Positions 154 to 55,023 of a stretch of DNA of 64,000 nt are shown here, in pieces (position 1 is the stretch's first letter; every line of letters starts with the position of its first letter). Under the pieces are notes generated by a model. That model made no database searches. It saw only the letters and a list, made by a program, of their open reading frames with translations, and had not been told where the DNA came from. The stretch is taken from positions 1 through 64,000 of the forward strand of contig NZ_VDMA02000004.1 of assembly GCF_006334915.2 (NCBI RefSeq), given 5' to 3'. The DNA is from Microbispora catharanthi (lineage in GTDB: Bacteria > Actinomycetota > Actinomycetes > Streptosporangiales > Streptosporangiaceae). Both the position numbers and the translations under genes were made by a program.

Positions 154-2190
154 ATGCGGAGAAGATTTCGCACATCGGCAGTGGCCGCCTGCGTGACGGC
201 GGTCGCACTCATCCCCGCGGCACCGTCGTGGGCAGAGGAGACGACACCGCCGACGATCAACGTGGCGACGCTGTCGCCCTCTGCGCCGACCGGCCAGAAC
301 AACTGGTATCGCGGCCCGGTGACGCTGAACGTGTCGGCGACCGACGACGTCGGCATCGCCAAGTTCCAGTACTCGCTCAACGGCGGCGCCGCCTACATCG
401 ACGTGCCCGTCGAGGGGGCGCCGGCGTCGGCCACCGCGTCGGCGGTGATCACGCAGGAGGGCAACACCAGCGTCCGGTACCGCGCGGTCGACACGTCCGG
501 AAACGTTTCGGCGATCCGCTCGATCTCGGTCCGGATCGACACGCGCGCGCCGGCTGCGTCTTACCCGGCGATCACCGACGGTCACGTCGGTCACGTCGCC
601 ACACTTATCCCGACGCGCACGGACCCCGCCCCCGGCTCGGGCGGAGTGGCTGTGCTGAACATGTACCTCGACGGCAAGCTGGTCCCGCCGTTGCCGGTGC
701 AGACCTCCGACCTGTCGCTCGGCGTGCACACGCTCGCGGTGCATCTGTCTGACGCTGCTTCCAACAGCGCGAAGTACACGCAGACGTTCATCGTGACGAC
801 ATCGTTCGCGGACGTCGGCACGCTGATCACCCGGTTCGTGACCGCCGGCAGCGTCCCGGCGGAGGTCGGCACGGCGCTCCAAGCCAAGCTCGACCAGGCG
901 AAGGCGCTCGCCGACGCCGGTTCGGCCAAGCGCGCGAGCCAGGTCCTCAACGAGTTCGTCTCGATCGCCGGCGACCAGATCGCGCCCGGCTCGGCCCGCA
1001 GCACACTCGTGGGCGATGCGCGTTACCTGATCGACCAGCTCAACGGCCGGCTCGCGGCGGAGCCCGCGACGGGCCTCGAGTCTGAGCCCGCGGAGGGCCC
1101 GAAGTTCATCCCGGACCCGGTGCTCGCCCCGCTCCCGCACAACCCGAACGCCGACTACAACGTCCTGGTCTTCTCCAGGACGACGGGCTTCCGGCACGAC
1201 CACATCCCGCACACCGTGGCCGCGATCCAGAAGCTCGGCATCGCGCACAACTTCAACGTCGACGTCTACGACCCGCAACTCCCGACCGTCACGCTGCCCA
1301 CGAGCCCGTTCCTGAGCCTCGACACGCTCAAGCAGTACGACACGATCGTCTTCGAGTCCAACGTCGGGCACCCGGGCCCGCTCAATCCGATCACCGAGCA
1401 GCCGAACTTCGAGGCCTACATGCACCAGGGCGGCGGCTATGTCGGCATCCACGGCGCCGCCGACTCGTTCGAGATCGGCACCTGGCCGTGGTACGGCGAC
1501 CTCGTCGGTGGGTTCTTCACCAACCATCCGAACGGCCAGAACGGGTTCGGCCAGTGCGGCAGCTGCATCCACACCGAGGTGGTGACCGAGGACAACACGC
1601 ACCCGGCGACCGCGCATCTCCCTGACCGGTGGATGACGGTCGACGAGCTCTACAACTTCGACCGCAACATGCGGGCCGACGTGCACACGCTGCTGAGCCT
1701 CAACGAGGACAGCTACCAGCGCAGCCTCAACAGCGGCAACGCGGCCACCAACCCGCTGCGGCTGATGAACGGCGACCACCCGATCGCGTGGTGCCAGAAC
1801 TGGGGCGGTGGCAAGGCGTTCTCGAACATCCTCGGCCACTTCCGGACGCAGTACTACGACGACTCGTTCATGCGGATCATCCTCGGCGGGATCGAGACGA
1901 CCGCCGACCGCAAGGACGCCAACTGCTCGTCCTACCGCGAGACCAGCCTGCTGATCGAGGCTGACCGAGCGGCCGGGCTGCTGACCGCGGCCGCCGCGGA
2001 CGCCGCCGATGCCGCCCTGGACATCGCGCGGGACAGCTACCTGGCAACCAACTACACCACCGCCATCCCGGCGCTGAACTCGATCGTCGACCTGGCGAAC
2101 GACAATGCCTCCGGCGACGCTGCGGCACGTTCCGAGCTCGCGCGGCAGGCGCGCGAGCTGCGGGAGTGGATGCAGAACCTCAACCGCTGA
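154..2190 (+). CDS. Secreted ThuA domain-containing protein
   Basis: A 678-aa exported protein. Residues 1-28 are a Sec signal peptide (Arg-rich start, Ala/Val core, PSWA-EE cleavage). Residues about 30-215 are Ig-like strands of the type seen beside chitobiase/OmpL47-like repeats (DNTSG-like 'VDTSGNVSAI'). A helical linker of about 225-300 follows. The ThuA (glutamine-amidotransferase-like) domain starts near residue 330 (YNVLVFSRTTGFRHDHIPHT) and runs to about 575, containing GGGYVGIHGAADSF. The C-terminal 80 residues are Ala-rich helices resembling FIVAR modules. ThuA domains are linked to trehalose and other disaccharide use, but their reaction is not established. An AAGAGAAG ribosome site precedes the ATG. 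Confidence 0.85.
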   Translation: MRRRFRTSAVAACVTAVALIPAAPSWAEETTPPTINVATLSPSAPTGQNNWYRGPVTLNVSATDDVGIAKFQYSLNGGAAYIDVPVEGAPASATASAVITQEGNTSVRYRAVDTSGNVSAIRSISVRIDTRAPAASYPAITDGHVGHVATLIPTRTDPAPGSGGVAVLNMYLDGKLVPPLPVQTSDLSLGVHTLAVHLSDAASNSAKYTQTFIVTTSFADVGTLITRFVTAGSVPAEVGTALQAKLDQAKALADAGSAKRASQVLNEFVSIAGDQIAPGSARSTLVGDARYLIDQLNGRLAAEPATGLESEPAEGPKFIPDPVLAPLPHNPNADYNVLVFSRTTGFRHDHIPHTVAAIQKLGIAHNFNVDVYDPQLPTVTLPTSPFLSLDTLKQYDTIVFESNVGHPGPLNPITEQPNFEAYMHQGGGYVGIHGAADSFEIGTWPWYGDLVGGFFTNHPNGQNGFGQCGSCIHTEVVTEDNTHPATAHLPDRWMTVDELYNFDRNMRADVHTLLSLNEDSYQRSLNSGNAATNPLRLMNGDHPIAWCQNWGGGKAFSNILGHFRTQYYDDSFMRIILGGIETTADRKDANCSSYRETSLLIEADRAAGLLTAAAADAADAALDIARDSYLATNYTTAIPALNSIVDLANDNASGDAAARSELARQARELREWMQNLNR

Positions 2191-2198
2191 CCCGTTCA

Positions 2199-2233
2199 CG
2201 CGGCGGGGGCGGTGGATCGCCGCTCCCGCCGCG
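2199..2233 (+). terminator. Hairpin after the ThuA gene
   Basis: CGCGGCGGG (2199-2207) pairs perfectly with CCCGCCGCG (2225-2233), with an additional inner GGCG/CGCC pairing. It begins 8 bases after the ThuA stop codon. There is no T-run, as is common in high-GC actinobacteria. Confidence 0.55.
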
Positions 2234-2416
2234 CTGACGCTGGAGCGCACCACTATCGCGGATTTATGCACGACCTTCTCATGATCATCGACGAAACATC
2301 GGTAGGTGCCGCACGCGACCCATCCTCCGAAGGGAGCGGTGATGGGTCGTGAAATGAGGACGGCCATCGCGTGATCCTTCGTGATTGCAAGTCAAGATCC
2401 AAGGAGAACCAAAGCG

Positions 2417-2521
2417 ATGGCCGTGAACGACAGTGTGGACCCTGGCGCCTGGCTGGCGAAGCCGATCGAGGCCGGTGACCCGGATCTGTTGCGATCCATG
2501 GTGAAGACCATGGCCGAGGTT
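2417..2521 (+). pseudogene. IS256-family transposase, N-terminal fragment
   Basis: Starting at an ATG behind AAGGAGAACC, about 34 codons read MAVNDSVDPGAWLAKPIEAG then DPDLLRSMVKTMAE. This is the characteristic start of actinobacterial IS256-family transposases. The similarity stops abruptly at about 2520, where a different IS remnant begins on the other strand. The upstream 2313-2350 region forms a hairpin (GACCCATC with GATGGGTC), as often found ahead of such transposases. It is non-functional, with only about 8% of a full transposase left. Confidence 0.75.
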
Positions 2522-2831
2522 CCAGGAGCCTTGGTTGGGATGGGCGTGGATCGGCAGCTCGGTGAATCGGGCCTTGCTCACCGTGACGCCCAGTGGATAC
2601 GAGGTGGTGTCGAGTTCGGCTTCGACCCGCAGCCCGGTGCGGGTCATTGTTGAGGCGATGGTGTTGACGACGACCTGGTGGCTGGTCAGCGGCCGTCCAC
2701 GCCAGTTCATCGTGATGTGGGAGAACAGCCGGTGCTCGATCTTGTTCCATTTCGAGGTGCCCGGCGGGAAATGACACACGGTGATCGCCAGGCCGGTCTC
2801 GGCGGCCAGGGCGGCAAGCTCGGCCACGGCT
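2519..2831 (-). pseudogene. ISAzo13-family transposase, C-terminal fragment
   Basis: On the minus strand an uninterrupted stretch reads from VAELAALAAETGLAITVCHF through PPGTSKWNKIEHRLFSHI and TSHQVVVNTIAS to HAHPNQGSWN. These are signatures of the DDE domain of the ISAzo13/Rhodopirellula-type transposases. There is no start and no natural end. It abuts the IS256 remnant at about 2520 and the end of the sigma-factor gene at 2830, so the block is a junction of two decayed insertion sequences. Confidence 0.75.
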
Positions 2832-10579: not shown

Positions 10580-11290
10580 GTCTCTCCCGTCATGCCGTCT
10601 TCACAGCAGTTGACCTGTGAGACCTGGTTGATCGCCAGTGCGTGATGGGGTCGTAGGCCGATCGTTATTAACCGGTAAGCGATCCTTTCCAACCCGGAGT
10701 CCGGAGCCCGTTAGCGTTTGAGCCCTCACTCGTGATTCCCCCTTTGTCGCGGAGAATCAGGAGATGTCATATCTGGAGAGACGCCCGCTTCCTGCGGCCG
10801 GAGGAGCGGGCGTTGTCCTCCCCTTTCTCTCCGCCTTCTCGCGCCGTCGCCGGTGCGGGTGGTGGTTGTCGCCGATCGCCGTCTTCCGCGGCTCGGCTCT
10901 CTCCCCCTGCCGGTACATCGGTATCGGCAGGGGGTCGCCGCCGTCACGGGTATGAGGGTGGCGCCGGCAGTCCGGCCGGGCGGGGTCTTCGACAGCGGTG
11001 GCTCGATGAACGCCGGGTCCGACTGCGGCTGCCGCCCTGTTTTCGAGTGCCCGCCTGAACGTTTCACTCGATCCCGCATCCCGTCCGTCGTCTTCGGTGG
11101 TTCCTGTGCAAGTGAGAGCCGTCGTACGCGGAAAGCCGCCGCGGCGCGTCGTTGACCGGCGATCGATGGGCTCGTAACTTGATGCGCGATGTTCCTGTAG
11201 ATGAACGTAGTTCAGGTGCATGAAAACCCTTGTGGGGCCAGGAATCAATCCTCGGTCAGGGGCCCTGCACGACCTGCAAGGAGCTCGGGT
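10580..11290. other. Structured gene-free interval before the pectate lyase gene
   Basis: I find no convincing gene in these 711 bases. They hold a hairpin ACGCCCGCT/AGCGGGCGT (10781-10813), a stronger one CCCCCTGCCG/CGGCAGGGGG (10903-10934), and a 13-bp palindrome TGAACGTAGTTCA (11202-11214) close to the lyase leader. The last is a candidate operator. Small frames present here have poor third-position bias. Confidence 0.5.
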
Positions 11291-12925
11291 TTGAAAAGCA
11301 GAACCAGAACAGGCGCCGGGCTGATCGGCGTCCTTGCCGCAGCCGCCGCCCTGGCCGGCGTGACCACCACCGGAACGGCGCAGGCCGCGACCGGATGCGC
11401 CGTGACCTACACCACCAACGACTGGCCGGGCGGCTTCACCGCCGCCATCACGATCCAGAATCTGGGCAGCGCGATCAACGGCTGGACCCTCGGGTTCACC
11501 TTCCCCGACAGCGGCCAGAAGGTGGACACCGGATGGTCGGCCACCTTCAGCCAGAGCGGGCAGAACGTCACGGCCACGAACGTGGACTACAACGCCGCCA
11601 TCCCCAGCGGCGGATCGGTGTCCATCGGGTTCAACCGCACCTGGTCGGGCTCCAACCCCAAGGCCACCGCGTTCACCCTCAACGGCGTCACCTGCACCGG
11701 CTCCACCACCACCGCCTCCCCCAGCCCGCTCACCACCCCCACGCGATCATCCTCCGCCTCGCCTTCACCCTCACCCTCGGCCTCGGTCACCCCCACGCGC
11801 TCACCCTCGCCCTCGCCGTCGCCCACGACGACACCGTCGAGTGGCGCGTTGTACGTCTCGCCGAGCGGCAGGGACGGCGCCTCGGGGACGCAGTCGGACC
11901 CGACGACCCTCACTTCGGCGATCAGCCGCGTCGCCCCCGGCGGGACGATCTACCTGCGCGGCGGGCGGTACAACTTCGCGCAGACGGTCACCATCGCGCC
12001 GGGCAACAACGGCACCTCGAGCGCCCGCAAGACGCTGTCCGCCTACCCCGGTGAGACTCCGGTGCTGAACTTCTCGGCCCAGAGCGAGTCCTCGTCGAAC
12101 CGCGGGCTCACCGTGAACGGCTCGTACTGGCATGTGTACGGCGTCGTCGTCGAGCGTGCCGGTGACAACGGAATCTACGTCGGCGGCAGCAACAACATCA
12201 TCGAACGCACGGTAACCCGGTTCAACCGCGACACCGGGCTGCAGCTCGGGCGGATCGCCTCCGACACCCCCCGCGACCAGTGGCCGTCCAACAACCTCAT
12301 CCTCAGCGCGGAGTCGCACGACAACGCCGACTCCGACGGTGAGGACGCCGACGGCTTCGCCGCCAAGCTCACCACCGGCACAGGCAACGTCTTCCGCTAC
12401 GACGTGTCCCACAACAACATCGACGACGGCTGGGACCTCTACACCAAGACGGACACGGGAGCCATCGGGCCGGTCACCATCGAGGACTCCCTGTCGTACA
12501 ACAACGGCACCCTCACCGACGGCAGCCAGGCCGGCGCCGGCGACCGCAACGGCTACAAGCTCGGCGGCGACAGTATCGCCGTCAACCACGTCGTTCGGCG
12601 CAGCATCGCCTACCACAACGGCCACCACGGGTTCACCTACAACAGCAACCCCGGCACGATGTCGATATCGAACAACGTCGGCATCGACAACGCCGAGCGC
12701 AACTTCTCCTTCGACGCCGGCACCTCGGTGTTCCGCAACAACACCTCCTGCCGCAGCGGCAGCGGGAGCAACGACAAGATCGTCGGTAACGCCGACAGCT
12801 CCAACCAGTTCTGGTCGGGCTCCAACGGGTCCCGGTGCTCCTCCTACACCGGCGCCTTGGGCTGGTCCTACGCCTCGGACGGTCACCTCGTCGTGACCTT
12901 CGGCGGCAAGCCGGTCACGCCGTAA
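11291..12925 (+). CDS. Secreted CBM2-pectate lyase (PL9-type right-handed beta-helix)
   Basis: A 544-aa exported enzyme if translation starts at TTG 11291, which lies 7 bases after AAGGAG and directly begins a signal peptide (LKSRTRTGAG...GTAQAA). An in-frame ATG at 11201 would add 30 residues that look untranslated. After the signal is a family 2 cellulose-binding module (CAVTYTTNDWPGGFTAAITI, with NGWTLGFTFP and IGFNRTWSGSNPKAT). A Ser/Pro/Thr linker of about 45 residues follows. The last 370 residues are a parallel beta-helix with LYVSPSGRDGASGTQSDP and DNGIYVGGSNNIIERTVTR, and the Asp-rich NADSDGEDADGFAAK segment, as in PL9 pectate lyases. It likely acts on wall-bound pectin. Confidence 0.9.
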   Translation: MKSRTRTGAGLIGVLAAAAALAGVTTTGTAQAATGCAVTYTTNDWPGGFTAAITIQNLGSAINGWTLGFTFPDSGQKVDTGWSATFSQSGQNVTATNVDYNAAIPSGGSVSIGFNRTWSGSNPKATAFTLNGVTCTGSTTTASPSPLTTPTRSSSASPSPSPSASVTPTRSPSPSPSPTTTPSSGALYVSPSGRDGASGTQSDPTTLTSAISRVAPGGTIYLRGGRYNFAQTVTIAPGNNGTSSARKTLSAYPGETPVLNFSAQSESSSNRGLTVNGSYWHVYGVVVERAGDNGIYVGGSNNIIERTVTRFNRDTGLQLGRIASDTPRDQWPSNNLILSAESHDNADSDGEDADGFAAKLTTGTGNVFRYDVSHNNIDDGWDLYTKTDTGAIGPVTIEDSLSYNNGTLTDGSQAGAGDRNGYKLGGDSIAVNHVVRRSIAYHNGHHGFTYNSNPGTMSISNNVGIDNAERNFSFDAGTSVFRNNTSCRSGSGSNDKIVGNADSSNQFWSGSNGSRCSSYTGALGWSYASDGHLVVTFGGKPVTP

Positions 12926-14755: not shown

Positions 14756-15601
14756 TCAGCGGCCGTTGACGGAGAAGTGCTGGTAGTCCTTGGCGCCCGA
14801 CCAGGAGCCGCCCCAACCCCAGCCGATCTGCTGGAAGGCCCGCACCACGCGGTCTCCGCTGTTGATCACGCCGGGCTTCTTGAGCGGCCGGTCCACGAAC
14901 GCGTCCGCGTTGCGGTGGGCGTTGGAACCGTTCGCGTAGACGTACGGGTTCTCCCGCGGATTGAGGTCCACCGCCAGGCCGTACGCGTGGTTGGACCAGC
15001 TGCCCGAGCCGGTGGCGTTGCGGCAGTTGAAGGCCGAGGTGTTGTCGGCGTCGATGGAGTCGTTGTCGCTGCCCTTGTAGACGTCGACGGGCTCCATCCG
15101 GCGGATGGGGTAGCGCATGTCGTAGAGCTTCCCGAAGACGGAGGCCATGTCCTCGGCCACCTTCTTGTTGACCACGAGTGTGCCGGTGTGCGCCTGGTCG
15201 TCGAAGCCCCAGTAGGTCATGGTGATCTTACGCAGCCCGCTCAGCGGAACCGGGCAGCCCGGACGCCAGGAGTGCCGGACGTCGTCACGGGACACCTTGT
15301 CGATCTTCGCGGAGAAGGGAGGCGGCCCGCTTGGGCTCGGCGTGGGCCCGTTCCCGGGAGCGGGCGAGACCGGCGCGGACGAGGGCGTGACGGACGACGG
15401 GGTGGCGGACGCGGAGGAGGTCGGCCCGGCGGAGGGAGCGGCAGGCGTGGACGAGCCCGGTGCCGGTGACGCCGGTGCGGGCACCGACACCCGGGTCCGG
15501 GCGGTGGCGGACGCGCCGGCGTCGCCGACCCCGGCGCAGCCGGTCACCCCGACGAGCGCCGCCATCACTACCGCTGACCTGCGGTTCCACAAGGTGGTCA
15601 T
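14756..15601 (-). CDS. Lipoprotein D-alanyl-D-alanine carboxypeptidase-like, peptidase M15 family
   Basis: A 281-aa exported protein. The N-terminus carries a lipobox-like LVGVTGC (Cys about 22), followed by an Ala/Pro/Ser spacer of about 75 residues. The catalytic domain (about 100-281) has the M15 zinc signature WSNHAYGLAVDLN (His and Asp ligands), a supporting Arg/Ser segment RNATGSGS, and the second His in DYQHFS at the C-terminus. It is expected to hydrolyse D-Ala or the peptide stem of peptidoglycan outside the membrane. Adjacent to it, and divergent, is the Lgt-like gene of the next operon. Confidence 0.87.
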   Translation of the reverse strand: MTTLWNRRSAVVMAALVGVTGCAGVGDAGASATARTRVSVPAPASPAPGSSTPAAPSAGPTSSASATPSSVTPSSAPVSPAPGNGPTPSPSGPPPFSAKIDKVSRDDVRHSWRPGCPVPLSGLRKITMTYWGFDDQAHTGTLVVNKKVAEDMASVFGKLYDMRYPIRRMEPVDVYKGSDNDSIDADNTSAFNCRNATGSGSWSNHAYGLAVDLNPRENPYVYANGSNAHRNADAFVDRPLKKPGVINSGDRVVRAFQQIGWGWGGSWSGAKDYQHFSVNGR

Positions 15602-15736: not shown

Positions 15737-15770
15737 GACGATCGGAATCGTCGCGGTCCGCCGCTAGGGT
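15737..15770 (+). promoter_or_regulatory. Leaderless promoter of the Lgt-like/radical SAM operon
   Basis: A -10 element TAGGGT (15765-15770) is followed by only 6 bases and then GTG 15777. This is the arrangement of leaderless actinobacterial genes, and no Shine-Dalgarno is present. Upstream is an inverted repeat, GACGAT (15737-15742) with ATCGTC (15747-15752), which is a candidate operator. A TTGACG at 15735 is too far for a usual -35 spacing. Confidence 0.5.
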
Positions 15771-15776
15771 GGCGTC

Positions 15777-16610
15777 GTGCTTGAGCAACTGCGTTTCGGC
15801 GGGGTGACCGTGCCGACCCACGCGTTCTTCGTGGGTCTCGGCGTGATCCTCGCGAGCGTGGTGTTCGTCCTTGAGGCGCGGCGCCGGGGGGCTTTGCGGG
15901 AGGAGTCGCTCGTCGCCGTCACCGGCGCGCTGGTCGGCGGGGCGATAGGCATGCGGCTGTCCGGCTGGGCCGAGCATCTCGACCCCGCGCTCAACCCCGG
16001 CCTTCTCGAGGCGTGGATGTTCGGCGCCCGGAGCATCCTCGGTGGCCTGACCGGCGCGTACGTCGGGGTGCTGGTGGCGAAACGGCTGATCGGCTACCGG
16101 GAGCGGACCGGCGACCTGTTCGCGCCCGCCGTCGCGCTCGGCATGGCCGTCGGCCGCATCGGCTGCTTCCTCACCGAGGCCCCCGGCCGTCCCACCAGCC
16201 TTCCCTGGGGCGTCCACGCGCCCGCCACCGTTCCTGAGTGCCCCGGCTGCGTGTCCGGGCAGGCCATGCACCCGTCGTACCTGTACGAGACCGTCTTCCA
16301 GCTCGCCGCCTTCGGCGCGTTGCTGTGGGCGCGGAGCCGTGTCGACCGGCCGGGCGAGCTGTTCACCCTGTATCTGGGCGCGTATGCCGTCTTCCGGTTC
16401 CTCGTCGAGTTCACCAGGGCGAACGAGACGGTCTGGCTCGACCTGACCCGCCCGCAGTGGTTCCTCGTCCCGGGGCTCACGCTCCTCGCCGTCCGCCTCG
16501 GGCTCGGATATCGCAAGGGTTTCTACGATCGGCTGCTCCCCCGGCGGGGCGAGCGGCGACCGCTGTTACCGGCCGCCCGGCTGTCGCCTGCCGGCGAGGA
16601 GGAGAGATGA
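15777..16610 (+). CDS. Lgt-family (prolipoprotein diacylglyceryl transferase-like) membrane enzyme, divergent
   Basis: A 277-aa protein with about seven membrane helices. Lgt landmarks are VGRIGCFLTEAPGRPT (126-140), MHPSYLYE (164-171) and YAVFRFLVEFTR (203-214). From memory of E. coli Lgt, the Tyr-x-x-x-Arg pair (Y235/R239) is kept as Y203/R207 and R143 as R127. The Asn of the GRxGNF motif is replaced by Cys130, and the essential His of the HGG segment is replaced by Leu (SILGGLTG, 86-93). A CPGC pair (155-158) is also unusual. These changes argue against ordinary lipoprotein maturation and for transfer from or to another lipid or thiol substrate. The gene starts a four-gene overlap-coupled operon with a radical SAM enzyme. 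Confidence 0.82.
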   Translation: MLEQLRFGGVTVPTHAFFVGLGVILASVVFVLEARRRGALREESLVAVTGALVGGAIGMRLSGWAEHLDPALNPGLLEAWMFGARSILGGLTGAYVGVLVAKRLIGYRERTGDLFAPAVALGMAVGRIGCFLTEAPGRPTSLPWGVHAPATVPECPGCVSGQAMHPSYLYETVFQLAAFGALLWARSRVDRPGELFTLYLGAYAVFRFLVEFTRANETVWLDLTRPQWFLVPGLTLLAVRLGLGYRKGFYDRLLPRRGERRPLLPAARLSPAGEEER

Positions 16611-17182
16611 GCACACCCCCCGAGCCGCCCGAGCGGCCGCACGACCCGCAGCCGGGCGATCCCCCCGGCCATCCGCCCGTGCCGCCGCCTCCCGGCGCGC
16701 CGTACGGCCCGGCCGACCCGCCGCCGTCTCAAGGTCCGGCCGGACCGCCGTCTCAGGGCCCGGGTGGGCCACCCCCTCAGGGCCCGGGCGGGCCGTACGG
16801 GCCCGGTCCCGGCGGGCCGTACGGCCCGGGTGGCCCGCGCGCGTGGCCGCCGCCCCCGCCCCCGAACACGACCGGCGTGGTCATCGCGATGACGATCGTG
16901 GGGATCGTGGCCTACGTGGTCGTCAACTTCGTGCTCTTCCTCGCGACCCTCGCGGCGGCCGACGGAGTCGCGAGCGATCACAAGAACGTCGCGCTCATCG
17001 GTGGATCCGTGATCCTGGCCGTGATCGCGTTCGGCGGCGGAACGCTGCTGATCCTTCTCCGTAAGCCCTGGTCGCGGGGGCTGGGGATGGGTCTGATGAT
17101 CGGCTGGGCGCTCATGACGATTTTCACCGCCGGCTTCTGCACCGGCGTCAACCCCTCGCTCTACACGGACGGTGCCCTGTGA
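16607..17182 (+). CDS. Pro/Gly-rich membrane protein of the Lgt-like/radical SAM operon
   Basis: A 191-aa protein. Residues 1-85 are a low-complexity Pro/Gly tail with repeated GGP/QGPG/PYGPG units, and the rest holds three hydrophobic helices (VIAMTIVGIVAYVVVNFVLF, a central VALIGGSVILAVIAFGGGTL, then GLMIGWALMTIFTAGFCTG). Its ATG overlaps the Lgt-like stop as ATGA and its own TGA overlaps the next GTG. This suggests a fixed stoichiometry with both enzymes. It may be a scaffold or membrane partner, but no family function is known. Confidence 0.78.
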   Translation: MSTPPEPPERPHDPQPGDPPGHPPVPPPPGAPYGPADPPPSQGPAGPPSQGPGGPPPQGPGGPYGPGPGGPYGPGGPRAWPPPPPPNTTGVVIAMTIVGIVAYVVVNFVLFLATLAAADGVASDHKNVALIGGSVILAVIAFGGGTLLILLRKPWSRGLGMGLMIGWALMTIFTAGFCTGVNPSLYTDGAL

Positions 17183-18747
17183 CCGCGGGAATGCCCCTGC
17201 GTGGAGATCGCATCCTCCGCTACGTCAACGCGTTCTGCCCCCGCTGCCACGACGAGCGGCCGGACCGTCCGCTGGCGGAGGTGCCGCGCCTGTCCGGCTG
17301 GCTCGCGGCCCGCGACGGCCGGGTCTACCTGGAGCGCGGCTGCCGCACCCACGGCATGGTCAGGACGCTCTACGACGAGGACCCGGAGATCCTCGCCTAC
17401 CTGGAGGAGTGGACCGCCCCCACCAAGGCGCATCTGCCCGACGTCGCGGGGAACTTCGATCCGGTCCCGGAGGCGTACCTGCGGGGGCTGCCGGAGATGC
17501 AGACCCAGCACACGTGCATCCTCCTTGAGGACGTGGCGGAGGCGTGCAACCTGCGCTGCCCGACCTGCTTCACCGACTCCTCGCCCGATCTGCGGGGGAT
17601 CGTGCCGGTCCGGGAGGTGCTCGCCAACGTGGACCAGCGCCTGGCCCGCGAGAACGGCCGTCTCGACGTGCTCATGCTCAGCGGCGGCGAGCCGACCCTC
17701 CACCCCGATCTGCCCGAGTTGCTCGCCGAGCTGACGGCCCGGCCCGTCACCCGCATCCTGATCAACACGAACGGCCTCCTGGTGGCCCGGGACGACGCCC
17801 TGCTCGACCTGCTCACCGAGCACCGCGAGCGCGTCGAGGTCTACCTGCAGTACGACGGCCTGTCGGCCGAGGCGTCCCGGCACCACCGGGGTGGCGACCT
17901 GCGGCGGCTCAAGGCGGAGGCGCTGCGGCGGCTCTCGGAGCGGGAGATCTTCACGACGCTGGTCATGACGGCCGCCCTCGGAGTGAACGACGGCGAGATC
18001 GGCGACGTGGTGCGCCTGGCCCTCGACACGCCGTACGTCGGAGGGGTCTCGATCCAGCCGCAGTTCGGCTCGGGGCGCTCGAATGCGATCGACCCGATGG
18101 ACCGGCTCACCCACACCGGGGTGCTCAAGCGCCTCGGCCCCCAGACGGACGGCCTGGTCACCTGGCGCGACCTGACCGCCCTGCCGTGCTCGCATCCGCA
18201 CTGCTGCTCGGTCGGCTACATGATCAAGGACGACTCCGGCCAGTGGCGCTCGCTGACCGCGTTGATCGGGCACGACCGCCTCAAGGAGAACCTCGGGCTC
18301 GTCTCCAACCGCATCGCCGACTCCGAGATCCCCCACCAGCTCCGCATAGCCGTGCAGGAGTCGCTGCTCGGCCTGCTGTCGGAGCAGTCGTCGCTGTCCC
18401 ACCCCGAGATCGGCAAGGTCTGGCGCGACATCTGCGAGAACTGCGACCTCGGGCTGACGACCCTGCTGACGCTCGCGTCCTCGGCCCTGCCGGGGCGCAA
18501 GCGGCGGCTGCGGCGGCTGCTGGGCGAGAGGGTGGTACGCATCACGATCAAGCCCTTCATGGACATGTCCACGATGCTGGAGGAGCGCCTGGTGCAGTGC
18601 TGCGTCCACGTCGGCACCCGCTCAGACCAGGACCAGTGCGCGCCGTTCTGCGCGGTGCAGGCCTGGCCCGCGCTCGCGCGTCAGCGGCTGTCCGCCGTCG
18701 CCGCGGCCGACGCCGGCGTACGGCTCCCGCTGCTGGAGATCACGTGA
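17179..18747 (+). CDS. Multi-cluster radical SAM enzyme of the MJ0619/Tes type
   Basis: A 522-aa protein. The radical SAM cluster motif is C123-x3-C127-x2-C130 (CNLRCPTCF), with the SAM-binding GGEP at 169-172 and INTNGL and VYLQYDG strands of the barrel. Extra metal sites are evident: C20-x2-C23/H24 with C55-x2-H58 at the N-terminus, C337/C342/C343, C419/C422, and C474/C475/C487/C491 after IKPFMDMSTM. This array, including the N-terminal rubredoxin-like group, matches the archaeal MJ0619 family, whose members include the tetraether lipid synthase Tes that couples lipid alkyl chains. The substrate here is unproven. Coupling with an Lgt-like enzyme suggests a lipid or lipidated-protein substrate. 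Confidence 0.82.
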   Translation: MTAGMPLRGDRILRYVNAFCPRCHDERPDRPLAEVPRLSGWLAARDGRVYLERGCRTHGMVRTLYDEDPEILAYLEEWTAPTKAHLPDVAGNFDPVPEAYLRGLPEMQTQHTCILLEDVAEACNLRCPTCFTDSSPDLRGIVPVREVLANVDQRLARENGRLDVLMLSGGEPTLHPDLPELLAELTARPVTRILINTNGLLVARDDALLDLLTEHRERVEVYLQYDGLSAEASRHHRGGDLRRLKAEALRRLSEREIFTTLVMTAALGVNDGEIGDVVRLALDTPYVGGVSIQPQFGSGRSNAIDPMDRLTHTGVLKRLGPQTDGLVTWRDLTALPCSHPHCCSVGYMIKDDSGQWRSLTALIGHDRLKENLGLVSNRIADSEIPHQLRIAVQESLLGLLSEQSSLSHPEIGKVWRDICENCDLGLTTLLTLASSALPGRKRRLRRLLGERVVRITIKPFMDMSTMLEERLVQCCVHVGTRSDQDQCAPFCAVQAWPALARQRLSAVAAADAGVRLPLLEIT

Positions 18748-19088
18748 GCCTCCCGCACGGGGAGCCCGGCGACGGGGAGACAGGCCCGACCGGCGTCGCG
18801 TACGAGCAGGCCCTCGCGGCCCAGGCGTCCGACGGCGGGCAGGCCAAGCCGTACGATCCGCTGAAGCTGTGCGTCTACGCGACGGTGGCGCTGCTCGCCT
18901 GGCTGTTCGGGGCGTGGGCCGTGCTCGGGTTCGCGGCCCTCGGGTTCGCCGGATACTGGCGGGCCCGCCGCGCGGGGCTCACCAGGAGCAAGTGCTATCT
19001 CAGGGACACCCGGCTCGTCCTCGCCTACCTGGGACTGATCACCCTGGTCGCCGCCGCGGCCCTCGTGCTCCCGCACACGCTGCGTTAG
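18744..19088 (+). CDS. Small two-helix membrane protein closing the operon
   Basis: A 114-aa protein starting at a GTG that overlaps the radical SAM stop (GTGA). Residues 1-45 are polar and probably cytosolic. Helices at about 48-72 (LCVYATVALLAWLFGAWAVL) and 90-110 (LVLAYLGLITLVAAAALVL) flank a basic loop with RARRAGLTRSKCYLRDTR. It may anchor the radical SAM enzyme to the membrane, but the family is not recognised. Confidence 0.75.
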   Translation: MSLPHGEPGDGETGPTGVAYEQALAAQASDGGQAKPYDPLKLCVYATVALLAWLFGAWAVLGFAALGFAGYWRARRAGLTRSKCYLRDTRLVLAYLGLITLVAAAALVLPHTLR

Positions 19089-28675: not shown

Positions 28676-28765
28676 GGAGGCTTCGCCTAGTCAGGTCTAT
28701 GGCGCCGCACTGCTAATGCGGTTTGGGTCTTAAGCCCATCCGGGGTTCAAATCCCCGAGCCTCCG
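28676..28765 (+). tRNA. tRNA-Ser (GCT)
   Basis: A 90-nt gene with a 7-bp acceptor stem GGAGGCT/AGCCTCC plus discriminator G. The anticodon stem CCGCA/TGCGG encloses CTGCTAA with anticodon GCT, a long class II variable arm is present, and the T arm contains GGTTCAAATCC. CCA is not encoded. Its 3' half is the attachment site of the AICE that follows. Confidence 0.95.
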
Positions 28766-43152: not shown

Positions 43153-43686
43153 TCAGGCGGGGGTTTCGGCGGTCGCGGTCAGGACCGCGCGGCCGAGGGT
43201 GTGGCCGGCCATGGTGAAGCCGAGGAGGGCCGGGGTGGCGTCGGCGGGGACGCCGATGGACTCGACATCGAGGGCGTGCACCACGACGAAGTAGCGGTGC
43301 GGGCCGTGTCCCGCCGGCGGCGCGGCGCCGATGAAGCGGGCCGCGCGGACGTCGTTGGGCAGTTGGAAGGCGCCCTCGGGCAGGCCCGAGCCCGTGTCGT
43401 CGCCGGCGCCCTCGGGCAGCTCGGTGACGGCGGCGGGGATGTCGGCGACCGCCCAGTGCCAGAAGCCGGACCCGGTGGGGGCATCGGGGTCGTAGACGGT
43501 GACGGCGTAGCTCTTGGTGCCTTCGGGGGCGCCGCTCCAGGACAGCTGCGGGGAGATGTCCTTCCCGCCGGGGACGCCGGAGGAGAACTGCTCGGGCGGC
43601 CAGGCGGCGCCGTCGGTGACGGTGGTGCTGGTGACGGTGAAGGAAGCCGCCTCGGGGAGGCGGGCGAAGGGGTCGTTGGCGGTCAT
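43153..43686 (-). CDS. YbhB/YbcL (PEBP)-family protein
   Basis: 177 aa from ATG 43686 after GGAAAGG. Family motifs are GGKDISPQLSWSGAPEGTKS, YDPDAPTGSGFWHWAVADIP and AAPPAGHGPHRYFVVVHALD, which form the anion-binding pocket of phosphatidylethanolamine-binding-like proteins. Cytosolic. It is divergent from a GntR gene 150 bp away and may be regulated by it. Confidence 0.87.
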   Translation of the reverse strand: MTANDPFARLPEAASFTVTSTTVTDGAAWPPEQFSSGVPGGKDISPQLSWSGAPEGTKSYAVTVYDPDAPTGSGFWHWAVADIPAAVTELPEGAGDDTGSGLPEGAFQLPNDVRAARFIGAAPPAGHGPHRYFVVVHALDVESIGVPADATPALLGFTMAGHTLGRAVLTATAETPA

Positions 43687-43800
43687 CGCGTCGTTCCTTT
43701 CCGGTCGTGCTGTGAGGTGACGGTGATGCGGCCGACGGAGAGCCCGCGGTCCGCGAAGAGGCATGTCGGCGTCTTCCGTCGCAATCGACCATAACACGGA

Positions 43801-43810
43801 TAATCGATTA
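43801..43810. promoter_or_regulatory. Palindromic site before the GntR gene
   Basis: TAATCGATTA is a perfect 10-bp palindrome 27 bp upstream of the GntR start, in an AT-rich patch. It is a candidate GntR operator. Confidence 0.45.
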
Positions 43811-43836
43811 TTTGTCGAATCGTCTATGCTGACCGC

Positions 43837-44538
43837 ATGACTCGGACGGCCCACCCCCTGACCTCCCCGGGCAAGCAGATGCTCTCCGAACAGGTCTACG
43901 CACACCTGCGGGACGCGATCATGCGCGGGGACCACGCCCCTGGTGACGCTCTCAAACCGCAGGACATCGCCAAGGAGCAGGGCGTGAGTCTGGCCGTCGT
44001 GCGCGAGGCGCTCGTACGGCTCGTCGGCGAGGGCCTCGCCGACCGGCTGCCCAACCGCGGCTTCGCCGTCCCGGCCTTCTCCGATCGCCGCTGGCAGGAG
44101 ATCGCGGAGGCCCGCCGGACCATCGAACCGGTCGTGCTGCGCATGTCCATCGAGCGTGGTGACGTCGACTGGGAGGCCCGCGTGCGAGCCGCCCACCACC
44201 GGCTGGCCCGCACCCCGGCGTTCGTGCCGGAGGATGGCGAGTACTACAGCAGCGCATGGTCCGAGGCCCACCGGGTCTTCCACCGCACCCTGCTGGAGGG
44301 CTGCGGCAACCCGGTCCTGCTGGAGACCTTCGACCGGATGTGGACCGCGAGCGAGTTGGCTCGCCGCTGGGCGGCGCAGCGCGATCCCGATCGGGACGCC
44401 GTCGGCGAGCACCGCCGGCTGGAGGAGGCGGCGCTGGCCCGCGACGCCGACACCGCGGCCGAGGTGCTGGCCCGGCACCTCACCCTGACCGCGGCCGCAC
44501 TGACCGGCTCTTCCCGGCAGGCGAAGGAAGTCTTGTAG
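43837..44538 (+). CDS. GntR-family regulator with FCD domain (FadR type)
   Basis: 233 aa. The winged helix (about 15-80) reads LSEQVYAHLRDAIMRGDHAP, LKPQDIAKEQGVSLAVVREA, LVRLVGEGLADRLPNRGFAV. The C-terminal FCD domain has EARRTIEPVVLRMSIERGDV, HRVFHRTLLEGCGNPVLLE and HRRLEEAALARDAD. The metal/ligand His residues of FCD proteins appear in AHRVFHR and EHRRLEE. The downstream SDR gene may be a target. Confidence 0.87.
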   Translation: MTRTAHPLTSPGKQMLSEQVYAHLRDAIMRGDHAPGDALKPQDIAKEQGVSLAVVREALVRLVGEGLADRLPNRGFAVPAFSDRRWQEIAEARRTIEPVVLRMSIERGDVDWEARVRAAHHRLARTPAFVPEDGEYYSSAWSEAHRVFHRTLLEGCGNPVLLETFDRMWTASELARRWAAQRDPDRDAVGEHRRLEEAALARDADTAAEVLARHLTLTAAALTGSSRQAKEVL

Positions 44539-44706
44539 GCCTCGCGGGCTGTCGCACACCGGTCGTCCGCGCGAGCCACAGCGACTGGGCGGCCATCGAG
44601 ATCATTTTTCTCATCACGGCGCGAACAGTAATGATGATCTATATATGGGTCATCCGGGTATGTCGTTCGCCGGCCACGTAGATCTCGATCCACGAAAGGG
44701 GCGGAT

Positions 44707-54950: not shown

Positions 54951-55023
54951 GCGGCCGTAGCTCAATGGATAGAGCATCTGACTACGGATCAGAAGGTTAG
55001 GGGTTCGAGTCCTCTCGGCCGCG
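54951..55023 (+). tRNA. tRNA-Arg (ACG)
   Basis: 73 nt with acceptor stem GCGGCCG/CGGCCGC, D arm with GGAT, anticodon stem TCTGA/TCAGA around CTACGGA (anticodon ACG), and T arm GGTTCGAGTCC. CCA is not encoded. Its 3' 24 bases recur exactly at 62089, which marks an integration site. Confidence 0.95.
54999..55022 (+). repeat. Left att repeat (24 bp) in tRNA-Arg
   Basis: Covers the T arm and acceptor 3' strand of tRNA-Arg. Identical to 62089-62112. Confidence 0.85.

Follow-up and report, generated by a model that had tools for sequence, protein, structure and literature searches.

The 64,000-nucleotide window analysed here, the forward strand of contig NZ_VDMA02000004.1 of Microbispora catharanthi from its first position onward, contains a four-gene cassette that encodes a divergent Lgt-like enzyme, a small membrane protein (tm2), a radical S-adenosylmethionine (SAM) protein (rSAM) related to the lipid-coupling enzyme Tes and a second small membrane protein (tm4) (Table 1). 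Consecutive genes overlap by 4 bases at all three junctions (ATGA at 16607, GTGA at 17179 and GTGA at 18744), and both these overlaps and the gene coordinates given in a first-pass annotation, which had been made from the nucleotide sequence, are borne out. The host genome is 9.25 Mb in size, and the nearest named relatives at the cassette locus are Microbispora species of the family Streptosporangiaceae.

Table 1. Coordinates of the cassette features within the window.
Feature	Position	Strand	Description
-10 box TAGGGT	15765-15770	+	Putative leaderless promoter; box ends 6 nt upstream of the lgt-like GTG
lgt-like	15777-16610	+	277 aa, Lgt-like membrane enzyme
tm2	16607-17182	+	191 aa, from translation and hydropathy
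tm2 C-terminal helix and tail	17078-17179	+	Residues 158-191, GLGMGLMIGWALMTIFTAGFCTGVNPSLYTDGAL; Cys178 is the sole Cys of tm2
rSAM	17179-18747	+	522 aa, Tes-related radical SAM protein
tm4	18744-19088	+	114 aa, membrane protein

In an even sample of 395 genomes of the class, orthologues of rSAM (at least 67% identity) and of the Lgt-like protein (E up to 1e-30) occur in the identical 23 genomes and are adjacent in every one, with a Fisher value for co-occurrence of 9e-38 that ignores relatedness. A scan with one genome per species recovered 441 loci harbouring a relative of rSAM, environmental and opportunistic mycobacteria being represented; among the best 80 of these 441, to which our counts of named loci refer, the Lgt-like gene adjoins rSAM in 79, the contig ending too early in the 80th, and a tm2 family gene does so in 78. 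The pairwise distances of the two enzymes correlate across 85 loci (r 0.90), to which shared ancestry contributes. The cassette genes are the only neighbours of rSAM common to all 22 representatives compared; a wider conserved neighbourhood was considered and rejected, the remaining shared genes reflecting Streptosporangiaceae synteny alone. The unit is also carried, without tm4, by large plasmids of Mycobacterium avium and M. branderi, and the cassette is found in Nocardia, in mycobacteria and in other classes of the phylum. These data show that rSAM and the Lgt-like protein form an obligate pair, inherited and transferred together, and confirm the conserved linkage for which the first-pass annotation had asked gene neighbourhoods to be checked. 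We found no paper describing this gene pair.

rSAM combines the Pfam domains PF04055 (Radical_SAM) and PF23545 (HMPTM zinc ribbon, presumably named after MJ0619-type proteins). Its top-scoring curated model is that of TrsS (NF045646, 191 bits, beneath the cut-off of 490), and it likewise falls short of the Tes model (NF045702, 147.3 bits, cut-off 450). By sequence, the closest solved structure is Methanocaldococcus Tes (7tol), which aligns over nearly the full length with an E value of 9.4e-32. The AlphaFold model of rSAM, which is of modest quality (mean predicted local distance difference test score, pLDDT, of 60 and predicted template modelling score, pTM, of 0.70), has GDGT-MAS (7tom) as its best fold match (E 2.8e-21) and 7tol as its second, whereas no further match is better than 4e-6, the next being peptide maturases such as SkfB.

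Every cysteine that the first-pass annotation had listed for rSAM is present in the translation, which contains C20, C23, C55, C113, C123/C127/C130, C337/C342/C343, C419/C422, C474/C475, C487 and C491. We compared the published ligands of Tes (PMC9433317) one by one with rSAM on alignments. The rubredoxin-like site CX2C...CX2H (C20, C23, C55 and H58) and the radical SAM motif CX3CX2C (C123, C127 and C130) are both shared with Tes and invariant in the rSAM orthologues, and C342, C474/C475 and C491 align with the cysteines of the C-terminal cluster ([4Fe4S]C). In contrast, all three cysteines of the [4Fe4S]N ligand set of Tes (C73, C77, C80 and a His) are missing from the aligned rSAM segment GLPEMQTQH, and rSAM carries additional cysteines (C337, C419/C422 and C487) that are fully or nearly conserved among its orthologues. 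A small tree places the rSAM family apart from MJ0619 and the Tes/TrsS-like proteins, on a branch of 1.29 with a support of 1.0. By sequence and predicted fold, rSAM is a relative of Tes in a clade of its own, not a Tes, from which it also differs in being always paired with an Lgt-like gene. The Tes/MJ0619-type assignment made in the first pass holds for relatedness by profile, sequence and fold, but not for membership, given the Tes cut-off, the [4Fe4S]N ligands and the separate clade. A group of rSAM relatives of about 30% identity in the sample (L048-L054), with higher TrsS and Tes scores, has no Lgt-like neighbour.

The resemblance to TrsS consists of a nearly full-length alignment with the highest curated score, but rSAM lies far under the cut-off, has no in-frame stop in the conserved alignment and lacks a conserved methyltransferase neighbour. 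Selenocysteine in rSAM, considered because of the TrsS match and of TGA codons flagged in some orthologues, was rejected, as no stop lies inside the conserved alignment; the simplest reading of the flagged TGA is that it terminates the gene itself. Two plasmid loci, L170 of Mycolicibacterium vanbaalenii and L171 of Salinirubellus, each have a methyltransferase gene immediately downstream of a radical SAM gene of the Tes/TrsS-like type, and the L171 radical SAM protein is devoid of the Tes N-terminal cluster motif. The rSAM of locus L162 (~805-2550, minus strand; family f73 of another class) is interrupted in the alignment, at query residue 352, by ~73 inserted residues, fewer than an intein usually has.

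The Lgt-like protein scores well above the Pfam LGT cut-off (112.5 versus 24.9 bits) and below that of the curated Lgt model TIGR00544 (83.4 versus 118.9 bits), and its sole significant fold match is Escherichia coli Lgt (5azb). Two stronger Lgt homologues (246 and 220 bits) are encoded elsewhere in the genome; the lack of a second canonical Lgt, which the first-pass annotation had named, jointly with complementation of lgt, as a threat to its lipid-modification idea, is not what we find. Relative to E. coli Lgt, the essential Arg143 and Arg239 are retained as the invariant Arg127 and Arg207, and equivalents of Gly154, Glu151 and Glu243 are kept, in this comparison as in that with the genome's own Lgt in L001. 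Tyr26 is replaced by His15, and the second Lgt of M. smegmatis, MSMEG_5408, is reported to carry both Tyr26His and Asn146Cys and is presumed to be of low activity (PMC13251419). MSMEG_5408 shares this two-residue signature with the Lgt-like protein and is probably its orthologue, as judged from the reported residues. An ordinary backup Lgt that lies by chance beside an unrelated radical SAM gene would fit the Lgt family annotation and the description of MSMEG_5408 solely as an Lgt of presumed low activity (PMC13251419), but the identical genome sets and constant adjacency have already refuted the linkage part of this explanation, and the distinct residue signature also speaks against it, so that we consider it barely credible. 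The expression of MSMEG_5406, two numbers away from MSMEG_5408, is ~9-fold down in zinc starvation (PMC7174638).

tm2 begins with a low-complexity region made up of 68% Pro and Gly, which is followed by three hydrophobic helices and the Cys-containing tail. Neither tm2 nor tm4 matches a Pfam or NCBIfam family above cut-off. The C-terminal consensus of 93 orthologous open reading frames is approximately [RK]GLGxGLMIGWALxSIxSAGxCTGxNPxxY. The tail cysteine is present in all 93, a count that is not independent proof of invariance since these frames were collected with a Cys-containing pattern, yet Gly at -2 and Tyr at +8 lie outside the search pattern and are invariant as well. The cysteine is usually ten residues from the C-terminus; it should face outside, because 89 of the 93 frames have a net positive charge in the loop preceding the last helix and 91 have a neutral or acidic tail. 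Seven distant cassettes have lost CTGxNP and still encode a small membrane protein with a near-C-terminal Cys beside the enzyme pair, as does one further cassette in another class, whereas the cysteine is missing from all four tm2 tail relatives detected in cassette-free genomes, and one of the four also contains a stop codon. Several Nonomuraea carry tandem tail genes, and the genome studied here has a single copy. A Cys tail that tracks the cassette in this way suggests a dedicated acceptor, although tm2 holds this role provisionally. The first-pass annotation had recognized the second gene product as a membrane protein and had overlooked this conserved Cys tail, the best candidate acceptor.

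Two other accounts of the tail were discarded. It is not a genome-wide sorting tag, as the genome has one copy and, wherever a genome of the class sample bears the cassette, its tail matches all lie beside rSAM, and a phage origin, raised by a weak Pfam match to a mycobacteriophage family (E 0.043), yielded no convincing phage match. Locus L151 contains a decaying remnant of tm2 that has a TAA stop and lacks the Cys; it belongs to a Planobispora-like genus (g13) whose genome G026 has lost the cassette that two other genomes of the genus retain.

The tail is reminiscent of the C-terminal MYXO-CTERM and JDVT-CTERM tails associated with myxosortase (PMC11980579) in having an invariant Cys that adjoins a membrane helix, and of JDVT-CTERM in having a single dedicated target; for MYXO-CTERM, lipidation of the C-terminal Cys by an Lgt-like enzyme has been proposed (PMC11980579). 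However, MYXO-CTERM tails run from motif to helix to basic cytoplasmic end and occur on many targets per genome, whereas tm2 has the reverse order of basic loop, helix and Cys tail, with the Cys after the helix, and is the one tail gene of its genome; it does not qualify as a member. Moreover, the conserved unit described here contains a radical SAM enzyme and no protease gene.

The small Cys-containing proteins encoded alongside, in tandem in some genomes, and the position of peptide maturases such as SkfB as the next fold matches of rSAM could also be accommodated if rSAM modified the tm2 or tm4 protein as peptide-modifying enzymes do, the Lgt-like protein recruiting or lipidating the product. 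A lipid enzyme is nevertheless the best fold and sequence match of rSAM by a wide margin, no peptide-maturase model comes near its cut-off and the conserved tm2 Cys should be outside the cell, which renders this explanation improbable. Within tm4, two cysteines (43 and 84) lie in the motifs DPL[KR]LC and S[KR]CxLxDTR and are conserved in relatives. tm4 accompanies the other genes in 51 of the 80 named loci and in distant cassettes of other classes; it was not detected in most mycobacterial loci, and the mycobacterial plasmid units lack it.

We consider it very probable that rSAM and the Lgt-like protein act in one lipid pathway. Our tentative proposal, to which we give somewhat less than an even chance, is that the cassette is a self-contained envelope lipid-modification unit in which the Lgt-like protein lipidates the tm2 Cys and rSAM remodels the acyl tails. 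The last helix of tm2 would resemble a type II signal peptide moved to the C-terminal end: basic residues inside, about 20 hydrophobic residues and then the Cys on the outer side of the membrane, which is where Lgt acts. The Lgt-like protein would move diacylglyceryl from phosphatidylglycerol, the donor of Lgt (PMC13251419), to this near-C-terminal Cys. It is more likely than not an active phosphatidylglycerol-dependent transferase, and we infer the use of this lipid because both phosphate-binding Arg are retained; that Cys178 is the acceptor has a nearly even chance.

The target of rSAM would be the same lipid, whose acyl-chain ends it would most likely join by C-C bonds in the way of Tes and Mss; whether before or after the transfer, this step would provide the acceptor with a macrocyclic or membrane-spanning anchor. 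An action on acyl tails is suggested by the Tes fold together with the residues of the C-terminal cluster, which adjoin lipid pockets in Tes (PMC9433317), and tail coupling itself, which we propose by analogy, is possible though held with slightly less confidence than the scheme that contains it. Mss, a radical SAM enzyme of bacteria that resembles Tes, couples acyl tails, and phosphatidylglycerol is one of its proposed substrates (PMC13274423); it differs in being described as co-occurring with Ger and not with Lgt, and its likeness to rSAM is judged from that description. The related enzymes, their linkage and the extra Lgts all favour the first-pass idea that the unit modifies a membrane lipid or a lipidated peptide, and the tests made of what would refute it turned up nothing against it, while the type of product can only be surmised.

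Several observations weigh against this scheme. On the Lgt side, Asn146 of E. coli Lgt is replaced by Cys130 in all 85 loci examined (98% threshold) and His103 by Leu88 here and by Leu or Ile in the orthologues, both residues being essential in E. coli Lgt (PMC13251419), and the presumed low Lgt activity of MSMEG_5408, the probable orthologue, points in the same direction (PMC13251419). The first-pass statement that the usual His and Asn are missing is correct for both positions, but the absence of His103 is not in itself unusual: actinobacterial Lgts carry Trp there (PMC13251419), as does the L001 Lgt, and we therefore dropped the loss of this residue as proof of lost Lgt activity. As aligned, the unusual features are the Asn146 to Cys exchange and the Leu or Ile in place of Trp or His, which, with the obligate radical SAM partner, set the protein apart from Lgt. 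The two replacements and the presumed low activity of MSMEG_5408 (PMC13251419) would also be explained by a catalytically dead Lgt-like protein that binds phosphatidylglycerol only and presents the lipid to rSAM. All orthologues nevertheless retain both Arg, the head-group residues and most Lgt-conserved positions, and an invariant Cys130 suggests altered rather than lost chemistry, so that a dead enzyme appears quite improbable.

On the radical SAM side, the labile Met439 of Tes is Lys458 in all rSAM orthologues, and it is likewise missing in the L048-L054 group. With respect to tm2, (i) the tail reads GxC, where a standard lipobox has GC or AC, (ii) its Cys is predicted to face outside whereas a radical SAM enzyme must be cytoplasmic, (iii) genomes that lack the cassette yielded just four tail relatives, of which three or more may be paralogues, and (iv) genomes of family f87 encode the Lgt-like protein, rSAM and tm4 with no tm2 within several kb. 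tm2 is therefore not required everywhere, unless it is unlinked in f87, and the invariant core is the enzyme pair. Together with the non-universal occurrence of both tm2 and tm4 and the action of Tes and Mss on free phospholipids (PMC9433317, PMC13274423), this core would agree with a pathway confined to lipids, in which rSAM makes tail-coupled (macrocyclic or membrane-spanning) phosphatidylglycerol, the Lgt-like protein shuttles diacylglyceryl or glycerol-phosphate between lipids and tm2 and tm4 are scaffolds that bring both enzymes together. Such a pathway leaves unexplained why the tail has one invariant Cys that is missing where there is no cassette, and why tm2 occurs in tandem copies, and we regard it as rather unlikely.

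The enzyme pair and the Cys-tail protein look like an undescribed lipid-attachment pathway. Taken to its full extent, the proposal implies a novel protein lipidation in Actinobacteria, including mycobacteria, by an Lgt paralogue that attaches radical-SAM-remodelled diacylglyceryl to a near-C-terminal Cys; in this complete form we deem it unlikely, by a shade more so than the lipid-confined pathway. If true, a lipid anchor of the Tes type (tail-coupled, macrocyclic or membrane-spanning) would be carried by a bacterial protein, and the cassette would join in one pathway Lgt lipidation and Tes-type tail coupling, so far seen only apart, would add lipidation near a C-terminus and would account for the second Lgt with an altered active site in some actinobacteria. 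It makes a sharp prediction: one mass shift on one cysteine of one protein, requiring two genes.

The leaderless-looking promoter noted in the first pass also stands up to comparison. Of 78 orthologous loci, 52 have a TANNNT box that begins 12-13 nt 5' of the lgt start, compared with a background of 0.7% at random positions, and the spacing is constant while the box sequences vary. A leaderless transcription start of lgt-like is supported by this alignment of sites, because TANNNT recurs at equal spacing across orthologous loci. In those Nonomuraea loci without the box that were inspected, tm2 lies 5' of lgt.

Divergent from the cassette, a gene for a D-Ala-D-Ala carboxypeptidase (Peptidase_M15_4) occupies 14756-15601 on the minus strand, and its synteny seems limited to Streptosporangiaceae. 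Elsewhere, the window encodes a ThuA plus FIMAH protein (154-2190), a CBM_2 cellulose-binding protein (11201-12925) and a large protein with a phosphatidylethanolamine-binding domain at its end (43153-44559). Two tRNA genes, at 28676-28765 and 54951-55023 on the plus strand, are the sole Rfam matches in the window.

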